64,000 nt of DNA, taken from the NCBI GenBank assembly GCA_963969495.1, contig OZ018327.1, positions 35,017,175 to 35,081,174 of the forward strand, read 5' to 3'. Of the stretch, positions 41,011 to 50,960 are shown one piece after another (position 1 is the stretch's first letter; the number at the start of each line of letters is the position of its first letter). Below the pieces are notes generated by a model that worked only from the letters and a program-made list of their open reading frames with translations, searched no databases and was not told where the DNA came from. Both the position numbers and the translations under genes were made by a program. This DNA is from Ceratothoa steindachneri. Its lineage: Eukaryota > Arthropoda > Malacostraca > Isopoda > Cymothoidae.

Positions 41011-41154
41011 CAACTTTCTCACATATACGTGAAATTGTAAGTAGAGTTGCAGGATTAGTTAAAAAAATTCGAGTTGGTATCTCCTTAGGCTAGGTAAGGC
41101 TGTTAACAATTCTGCAGTGACATCTCCTAGGGGATTGCAGGAGAGAGTAATGAA

Positions 41155-41238
41155 GGACAAATTATCGAATGGACGAAAATGGACATAGTATCGAATGGAC
41201 AAAATATAGAATAGACAAAGTATCGAATGGAAAAATTA
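41155..41238 (+). repeat. 16-bp tandem array, outer part of left MULE end
   Basis: About five units of ATCGAATGGACAAAGT type, preceded by a segment (41085-41155, TTAGGCTAGGTAAGGCTGTT onward) that recurs at 44338-44405. The array stops at the TTA used by the CACTA-like insertion. Confidence 0.9.
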
Positions 41239-42005
41239 CACTGTGTAACAAAATTTCATTTTTGTCTTGTCCTTGGGTTAAATGTGTTATTTCCCAATTG
41301 TTTGTGGCTCTATTAAATAAAAAAAAGTCAATTTTTATCAACAAACTTGGCTTTTGTGGCTAGGACATTGAATTTTTAAAATAGCCCATTTATGGTAAAT
41401 AATATTAATTTGATGCAAATAGTAAAAATATATAAAAAGTTTCAAGGGTTATGTTTTTTTTCAGTTATGGTATAAACATGATATACTGTATTTAAAAAGT
41501 TATAGAAACAGTAATACAGTAGTAATAGCTATTATTTTCCTTATATTTTGTTGGACTTTTTGCGACCTGAACAGCAATGGCAGTTCTCTTACTTTATATA
41601 TAGATTTAGCACTAATTTGGTAAAAATAACCTGTAAAGCTTTTTAGAACTTTCGAGAATTTTTTATATGTTTGAAGAATTACTAGAACGTTCTGGCAACG
41701 TAGATGACTGTATAAATACAAAGAATGTCTACTCAACAGATCAGTTTAACTCTAGCCGTCACAACGCAGACATCGTCACTCGTCATTAATAGAAGCATTC
41801 GTCACACATGACATCAAAAGGTTGCAAGCATCCGACAGGCGCATTTTGCTATGCATGTGGCGAATTTATTAAGACAAGAGAGAAAAAGAACTCTGTAGAG
41901 AGATCTGCTAAAATGTGTGAGGCCTACAAAGCATATATTGGCATGCCTGTCGGGGAGAAAGACAAACTTTGGGCACCTGCGAGCTCTGCAAAAGTACTTT
42001 AGAAA

Positions 42006-42063
<58 letters not shown>
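42006..42063. repeat. (TA)n inside the CACTA-like gene
   Basis: About 29 TA units placed within the N-terminal Cys-rich region (after CELCKSTL). Together with its flank, this replaces about 15 expected residues. Confidence 0.95.
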
Positions 42064-42067
<4 letters not shown>

Positions 42068-43099
42068 TTTGTTTATTTGGATACTGGTTTTTAAATATTT
42101 CTAATAACGCTAAGTGAAAAGTATTCGTATATTTATACTTATGTTTTAATTTTTTTTTTTTTTTACATGATGGTACATAGGAGAAAAAAGAGCTATGAAT
42201 TTCGCAATCCCACGAATTTGAAGGGAACCAACTGACCACTCAAGCAATTGTTTCTTCTGCATGGTGAATTCTTACAAACGTGGAGCAGTCAAAAATGCGC
42301 CTGTTATCATGTATCCAAACCTTCATTCATCTATTGCGTCAGTGCCACACAGTTCTGAGCTCCCCATACCCACTCCTCCAAAAAGAGAGCAGCAGTTTTA
42401 AAAAAAGGAAAAGCAGTTCAGAAGAGGATGAAGTCATTGATTCAGATTACAGAGGTGCACCTGATGAGATAAACCCATACTACCCCAACCCAAAAGATCT
42501 CAACGACCTTTTCAGAGATCTTGGCCTTACAAAGTGCAATGTCGATCTTTTAACTTCGAGACTCAAACAGTGGGATTTGTTAGATGGCAATGTGCAAATA
42601 TCAGGTTAGAGAAAACGTCACCAGTGTTTTTCAAGCTTGTTTACATTTCAAGATGAGCTTTGCTTTTGTCACAATCAGACCGATCTTTTTGAGGTAATCG
42701 AAATCGCCTGTAACCACAACGAGTTGTGTCTCTTCATTGACAGCTCATCCAGGAGCCTCAAAGCAGTGCTGCTTCATAACGGGAACATGTATCCATCTCT
42801 TCCCCTTGCTCACTCGGTCCAGCTGAAAGAGGAATGCAGCAGTGTCAAGATCTTGCTAGATGCATTGAAATATGAAGAGTACGGTTGGGGGGTTATCGGA
42901 GACTTCAGAATGGTGGCCTTCTTGATGGGTCTCCAGGGCGGCTTTACCAAGTTTCCTTGTTATCTTTACCTTTGAGACAGCAGGGACATCGTGGCAAACT
43001 ACCATCAACAGGATTGGCCACGACGAACCGAGTTTAGTATAGGGAGAAACAACGTCAAATGTGAGCCTTTGTTGGGCCCCGAAAAGTACTGTTTTCTCC

Positions 43100-43515
43100 T
43101 CGGCAACTCTCTTTTACCAACTCACCACATTCACCGCACTTATATGCTTCCCTTTTAGGGATAGTGTTATCTTTATCCATGTCTTTCTTATTATTTGTGG
43201 CATTTCTTTTGCCGTTACATTCGGTTTTAAGCGTACTCACGTTAACGCCACGGCGTCCACCTTCCGCCATCTTGAGTCTTTGTTTACCTTTTGTTTCGAC
43301 CTCTCCGTGGCGATGTTTTTTAAACCGGGCAAAATTTTGGGTCTTCGTGGCGAAATAATACTGTCCGTTTATATCACATTCGCTTCAACAATAACTAAAT
43401 TCCTTTTCATGGGTCACAAATCGTGTTCAAGTTTCACAAAAATCATTCAAAACACAGAATTTGTAGGGAGCTTTGCTCACGTCCGTCCGCACTCAACGAT
43501 TTTCCCATAAAAAAG
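43100..43515 (-). mobile_element. 5' end of a non-LTR retrotransposon inside the CACTA-like gene
   Basis: On the minus strand a presumed 5' UTR leads to an ATG at 43270 in good context (CAAGATGGCGG). The ORF reads MAEGGRRGVNVSTLKTECNG and KREAYKCGECGELVKE, the beginning of the Cys-rich (PHD-like) finger that opens ORF1 in several CR1/RTE-type elements. It then runs into CACTA sequence. The host gene breaks at GPEK and resumes at ESAVFKYL. No RT is present. Confidence 0.65.
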
Positions 43516-44275
43516 AAAAAAAAAGAAGAAGAGTCTGCAGTTTTCAAGTATCTCCCAGATTTCTTTCCTAAGCCATCTGCGGCAAAGGTGGAAGCCGGTG
43601 TCTTCGTCGGTCCACAAATAAAAAAGATCATGGAGTGCAAGGAGTTTCCCAGAGAAGCTGACTAGAACTAGCAGCGTGGGACAGCTTTATCGCAGTGGTT
43701 CTGGGCTTCGTAGGTAATCACAGAGCTGAAAACTCTGTAGAGCTTGTTGAGAACTTGCTGAGAAACTACGGCAAGATGGGTTGCAGGATGTCCATGAAAG
43801 TCCATATTCTTGACGCTTATCTTGATAAATTTAAGGAGAACATGGGAGCGTACTCCGATGAGCATAGCGGGCGCTTTCACCAGGATCTACTGGACTTTGA
43901 ACGCCGGTATCAAGGATCGTATAATGAAAATCTGTTGGGAGACTCTATTTGGAGGATGATTCGTGAAAGTACTTTACAGTATAAGCGTAAATCACGGAGA
44001 ACTACTCATTTCTAATATTTTAATTGTCTCACCTATGTAATTCTAGCATAAATAAATGTTATTTTTGAACATGTCGTTTTGTTTCTGCTTTATGCAAATG
44101 AAAGTTCAAATTCGCCACTTCCTTCCAGAGGGAATCGGTAAATTAAATATACATATCATTATTCTGGACACAAAAGTAAAGTTTGAAATAAATGTGTTTT
44201 TCATGTATTATAGACACAAGCAAATATAAAATACCATTTGCTACCCAAAGAAAAAAATCGTGTTACACAGTGTTA

Positions 44276-44600
44276 TCGAATGTACAGAGCATCGAATGGA
44301 CAAAGTATCGAATGGACAAATTTCGATTTTGTATCTTCTTAGGCTAGGTAAGGCTGTTAACAATTCTGCTGTGACATCTCTTAGGGGATTGTAGGACAGA
44401 GTAACGAAGGACAAATTATCGAATGGACAAAATATAGAATGAACAAATTATCGAGTGGACAAATTATCTAATGGAAAGAGCATCGAATGGACAAAGTATC
44501 GAATGGACAAAGTATCGAAGACAAAGTATCGGATGGACAGAGCATCGAATGGACAAAGTATCGAAGACAAAGTATCGAATTGACAAAATATAGCATGATC
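44276..44600 (+). repeat. 16-bp tandem array, inner part of left MULE end
   Basis: About fifteen units of ATCGAATGGACAAAGT, some lacking two bases (ATCGAAGACAAAGT). A unique-looking segment at 44330-44420 duplicates 41080-41165 in the same orientation. Confidence 0.92.
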
Positions 44601-47214: not shown

Positions 47215-47585
47215 CGTTTTATGTATATTGTCCGTTTGATATTTTGTCCATTCGCTACTCTGTCCATTCGATGCTTTGTCTTTGGATACTTTGTCATGCG
47301 ATACTTTGTCCTTCGATACTCAGTCCCTTCGCTATTTTGTCCATTCTATACTTTGTCCATTCGCTACTTTGTCCATTCGCTACTTTGTCCTTCGATACTT
47401 TGTACTTCGATACTTTGTCCATTTGCTACTTTGTCCATTCGCTAATTTGTTCTTCGATACTTTGTCTTTCGCTACTTTGTCGATTCGAAACTTTGTCGAT
47501 TCGATATTTTGTCGATTCGATACTTTGTTCTTCGATAATTTGCCCTTCGATCCTTTGTTCTTCGATACTTTCTTCTTCGATACTC
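47215..47585 (-). repeat. 16-bp tandem array, right MULE end (inverted)
   Basis: About 23 units of ACTTTGTCCATTCGAT, the reverse complement of the left arrays. Overlapping plus-strand ORFs up to 143 residues exist only because of the repeat. Confidence 0.93.
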
Positions 47586-47772
47586 TCTCCGAACACGCTC
47601 CTAGGACTTGGTTATAAGAAAAAATATAAATCATCTGAATCTGTTCTTGGGTTGGCTTCATATACGTTTTTATAAATGTAAACATGGTTTTGGGACGCAC
47701 TTTATTTATTAAAATTATTATAGTGAAATTTTTTCGCAATCTTTTTCAGTTTAACAAAAATTATATGAAGTA

Positions 47773-50827: not shown

Positions 50828-50960
50828 ATGTTAGGTCTGGTTTAGTTAGGTTTGCTTAAGTTAGGTGAGGTTAGGTAAGTTGTTGTTAGGATAAGTTTGG
50901 TTGGGTTAGACGACGTAAGGTTTGGTTAGGGTTGATTAGGTTAAGGTTAGGTTAAAAGAA
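50828..50960. repeat. Degenerate telomere-like (TTAGG) array
   Basis: Many near-copies of TTAGG/TTAGGT, for example AGTTAGGTGAGGTTAGGTAA and GGTTAAGGTTAGGTT. TTAGG is the usual arthropod telomere unit. This is a worn interstitial array or a related minisatellite. Confidence 0.65.

Follow-up and report, generated by a model that had tools for sequence, protein, structure and literature searches.

What is the unit at positions 41239–44272 of this Ceratothoa steindachneri DNA, and what is the function of the protein whose remnant it carries? The window, by which we mean the whole stretch of 64,000 nucleotides analysed here, had been given a preliminary description that read the unit as one insertion of a CACTA/CMC transposon, with a widespread uncharacterised protein as its likely transposase. 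We conclude, with a probability of roughly 93%, that the unit is a degenerate cut-and-paste DNA transposon of the Chapaev3 group (CMC; related to Transib and RAG) and that it is closest to the Merrow family. The kind is already known, Chapaev3 with Merrow and Garfield having been described between 2007 and 2014.

The element begins with a 12-bp terminal inverted repeat, CACTGTGTAACA, on the forward strand (41239–41250) and ends with its exact reverse complement on the reverse strand (44261–44272). Each end abuts a TTA target-site duplication, the left one (41236–41238) preceded by an A and the right one (44273–44275) followed by a T; the flanks are identical over these three bases only, in the context A-TTA / TTA-T. 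The exact 12-mer has two matches in the window, both at element ends, compared to about 0.008 expected by simple arithmetic, and a looser pattern with at most two mismatches shows no enrichment (5 matches versus 3.7 expected). The target was an array of 16-bp units, whose left part (41155–41238) precedes the element and which resumes at 44276. Removing the element and one TTA restores the register of the flanking units. When the joined flanks were used to search for empty sites, 72 of the 75 matches listed crossed the junction, mostly inside the array and at 73–89% identity, so that little is gained beyond the restored register. Inverted ends, TTA copies and register are all found as the preliminary description had given them, and together they bear out its single insertion event.

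The same ends recur elsewhere in the 3.93-Gb genome. At least 40 places are scored by DNA, the window included, and at least 77 by protein; each of the 77 contains one or more in-frame stops, and some short separate pieces, mostly of exon 1, have none. Across part of exon 2, the 40 loci differ pairwise by 8.8–16.2% (median 12.7%), a divergence that would fit a single amplification burst. Searching near each extrapolated end and allowing at most three mismatches, we read the CACTGTGTAACA 12-mer at the left end in 18 and at the right end in 30 of the 40 merged loci, window included. Because these ends recur beside unlike flanks, they are not due to chance. A conserved or domesticated host gene, lying by chance between short inverted repeats, would agree with the presence of an intron and with the protein's wide distribution among animals. 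However, the 77 scored places with a stop in each, the recurrence of the ends next to unlike flanks, and scattered hosts as different as lamprey, fish, mantis shrimp, wasp and moth make that explanation hardly credible; the single-copy gene that the preliminary description had named as its own refutation is contradicted by the many decayed copies.

The copies also reveal a target preference. TWA adjoins 7 of the 18 left ends and 14 of the 30 right ends, compared to a background of 4.7% (estimated on the 300 bases at either end of each locus, part of which may fall inside the element), with an A at −4 in 13 of 18 left ends and a T at +4 in 21 of 30 right ends. With ten further loci added, 19 copies, including the window's, have two readable ends; the duplication is exact in six of them, and two or more of the three bases agree in 12. 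Random re-pairing of ends reaches six exact duplications in 3.2% of trials and 12 copies agreeing at two or more bases in 0.7%. The exact-match signal by itself is therefore modest, likely due to the old age of the copies. These pairs exclude L003 and L027, whose right ends have more than three mismatches, and loci lacking one end; L016, L032 and L033, with doubtful left ends, were retained and count against duplication. The flank letters are themselves uneven, with an A at −1 in 8 of 18 left ends versus a T at −3 in 14, and a T at +1 in 15 of 30 right ends versus an A at +3 in 21. The duplicated base touching the element is thus less conserved than the outer one, which could be a trace of decay or of imprecise joining.

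A second subfamily (L051, L052 and L054) lacks the intron, its protein matching as a single segment, and its DNA is 65–67% identical over parts of exon 2. Its ends are CACTATGTAACA and TGTTACACGGTG, with TTA on both sides in L051; in L052 and L054 only the right end is readable. Shared ends in other copies and a recurring inverted-repeat and TTA pattern, both anticipated in the preliminary description, are found in the genome copies, with their duplication tendency and TWA preference, and in one copy of the second subfamily.

The coding remnant runs from an ATG at 41808 to 44015, and a search with its read-through retrieved 445 relatives (E ≤ 0.001) among 7,997 scored candidates, which we describe from the best 120. 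Among the matches listed, those with names are labelled uncharacterized, hypothetical or unnamed, and the hosts include sucker fish, mantis shrimp, sturgeon, piranhas, poison frog, lamprey, prawn, tunicate, Cotesia wasp and moths. In an alignment of 78 relatives (A2), D263, D317, C339, P383, L384, H385, H493, H498 and E515 are invariant, and C336 and E512 are kept in 77. Thus, the DDE core and its C(2)C, LH and H(4)H motifs occur in 77 or 78 of the 78, and PMC4079192 lists this set of motifs for Chapaev3. Searches of viral contigs returned no relative.

These motifs join the 5′-CAC...GTG-3′ termini in inverted repeats and the TWA duplication between A and T, seen as A-TTA / TTA-T in the window and as the TWA and A/T preference in the copies, in pointing to Chapaev3. 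PMC4079192 describes Merrow as a 2.45-kb element with two exons (78+484 amino acids) and Garfield with 78+478, C(2)C, LH and H(4)H being present in both; it reports that empty sites confirm a TWA duplication flanked by A and T, and that the elements moved horizontally among lampreys, fishes and insects. Our family resembles Merrow (Chapaev3-1_PM, sea lamprey) in its two exons, CAC...GTG ends, A-TWA-T target, motifs, and relatives in lamprey and sturgeon, and in lengths that match the published ones: P0001 totals 562 amino acids, equal to 78+484, and P0003, P0005 and P0007 are 484-amino-acid products like its exon 2. It differs in that loci of this genome reach at best 75–78% amino acid identity to P0001, P0003 and P0007, and that its two-ended copies are 2.33–3.48 kb long, compared to the 2.45 kb given there. 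Garfield (silkworm, Rhodnius, Cotesia bracovirus) shares the two-exon architecture, motifs and target, according to the same paper; its likely relatives, for which the kind of host is the sole guide (Cotesia P0047, moth P0043), are 48–50% identical to the window read-through and belong to another clade. In a quickly built tree of 123 rows with 39 open forks, the five of the 40 own loci included group with a mantis shrimp sequence (SH-aLRT 99), and a 40-row fork around that group (83) also includes lamprey and sturgeon, with the Cotesia sequence elsewhere.

The CACTG start and the 3-bp duplication are compatible with CACTA/EnSpm proper, encoding a CACTA-type transposase, and the scheme cited in PMC4079192 groups CACTA/EnSpm with Chapaev3 in the CMC megafamily. 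However, no CACTA transposase model appeared among the best 25 of 39 Pfam families matched by the 78 relatives at E ≤ 1, and the TWA target, LH and H(4)H form the Chapaev3 set as published. We consider a CACTA element very improbable; the CMC assignment of the preliminary description stands at the level of the megafamily, and its CACTA assignment gives way to Chapaev3, on the TWA target together with C(2)C, LH and H(4)H.

We compared the predicted structure of the protein to known folds. The model has an RNase H-like core resembling those of RAG1, the recombinase of antibody genes, and Transib, and is predicted to be equally close to RAG1 and to HzTransib. Together with the recurring ends and duplications, this DDE-type predicted fold supports the proposal that the protein is the transposase. 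It also raises the alternative of a Transib element, which would leave a 5-bp duplication, with the TTA repeat a coincidence of an AT-rich site. The modelled likeness to HzTransib favours that alternative, as does PMC4411706, which treats Chapaev3 as one clade within the Transib superfamily. In contrast, the duplication signal over many copies is three bases between A and T, and the window has none of the 5-bp duplicates that the same paper calls typical of Transibs. A Transib origin in that sense is accordingly most unlikely. The family also differs from the RAG1 and Transib recombinases in its low sequence identity, 12% in the best RAG1 alignment and 16% in the best Transib alignment, and in that no second gene is seen in the element. 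PMC4411706 further assigns a zinc-finger 'Chapa' domain to Chapaevs, to Chapaev3 and to the N-terminal region of RAG1. No CACTA structure was among the fold-search matches, which does not distinguish the CMC from the Transib scheme.

Several observations weigh against a Chapaev3 transposon closest to Merrow. The duplication is exact in a minority of the two-ended copies; the median pairwise difference makes decay a fair reason for this, and no proof. The window copy itself lacks C339, H498, E515 and the PPLH region. By Foldseek, similarity to RAG1 and Transib is low (TM-scores 0.28–0.46), with large root-mean-square deviations. No Pfam model (78 relatives) or NCBIfam model (3 relatives) matches at its cut-off, and a profile search of Protein Data Bank sequences returned no transposase. 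Membership in Chapaev3 is based on features, lengths and host names, and the exon border in the own copies is near residue 70 (about 70+492), versus 78 in the published account.

Given a Chapaev3 element, we propose the following mechanism and history. A live element would encode a protein of about 560 amino acids from two exons, combining an N-terminal zinc domain with an RNase H-like DDE core whose C(2)C...H(4)H site would bind zinc. By analogy to RAG1 and Transib, this transposase may bind the CACTGTG ends and may cut them through hairpins. Insertion would follow at A-TWA-T targets, a stagger of 3 bp producing the TWA duplication. The window copy made one jump into an arm of the 16-bp minisatellite and then decayed, with a second repeat entering its coding region later.

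The coding remnant lies on the forward strand. Exon 1 (41808–42005), with its border taken from 16 other copies, encodes the N-terminal four-cysteine zinc domain, with one frameshift near its end. A 163-nt intron (42006–42168) follows, containing a (TA)n run; its GT donor is retained and its acceptor has been lost, AG having become AT. By our reading, the 16 other copies with an exon 1–exon 2 interval have a GT donor in 11 and an AG acceptor in 14. Exon 2 (42169–44015), the predicted DDE core, is broken by stops and frameshifts and by a foreign insert, roughly 420 bp long (43103–43523, edges approximate, right edge A-rich), that replaces an estimated 50 bp or so encoding the PPLH region. The corresponding interval is 58–77 bp in 37 other copies, versus 450 in the window. 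Used as a query, 43112–43515 matches 39 other genomic places at 92–96% identity, so the repeat is, on sequence comparison, probably younger than the transposon copies. Many copies carry a (TA)n microsatellite in the intron, and the transposon may therefore spread microsatellites.

The surroundings of the element are repetitive as well. It is flanked on each side by a copy of a 115-bp direct repeat (41064–41178 and 44318–44432; 91% identity). The 16-bp minisatellite occupies 41155–41238 and 44276–44591 and is inverted at 47224–47590; at several other genomic places it recurs as pairs of opposite orientation separated by a few kb (e.g. C11:163964093/163968223 and C38:27083862/27088384). This recurrence suggests that the pairs are the arms of another multi-copy element, into which the Chapaev3 copy inserted. 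At 50830–50954 the window also contains a tandem array whose unit resembles TTAGG, the arthropod telomere unit.

The exon-1 domain, present in 44 of the 78 relatives, bears a possible relationship to the ZAD (zf-AD), which typifies a large class of zinc-finger proteins in insects. Like the ZAD of animal C2H2 transcription factors, it is an N-terminal four-cysteine domain, and ZADs are its top structural matches, which are weak. It differs in its transposase context and in its sequence matches: at E ≤ 1, 18 of the 78 relatives match zf-AD (best 0.00075), and in a set of ten, four matched at 18–19 bits, below the curated Pfam cut-off of 28 bits, which the exon-1 domain did not reach. The own-genome exon 1 (P0121) had no zf-AD match, and searches of the Protein Data Bank by sequence returned no ZAD. 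Searched for zf-AD, the own genome gave nothing, as did the control genomes, so the search is uninformative on absence. In the literature searched, no paper contained both ZAD and Chapaev, and among the papers listed, judged by titles and the beginnings of abstracts, none concerned a transposon origin of the ZAD. A common origin of the Chapaev3 exon-1 domain and the ZAD, the dimerisation domain of C2H2 transcription factors in arthropods and vertebrates, is a tentative suggestion, which we think rather unlikely.

The locus itself is ordinary. Its protein family, however, appears in the named database entries of many animals as uncharacterised or hypothetical, as the preliminary description held of a family that, as Chapaev3, was already in the literature; these entries now receive a name and a likely mechanism, and, being this transposon's protein, should be masked as transposons. 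The predicted model supports the view that Chapaev3 enzymes share the RAG1/Transib architecture. If the ZAD homology were true, ZADs would be captured transposon parts, and RAG-related transposons would be the source of an immune recombinase core as well as of a dimerisation domain in transcription factors.
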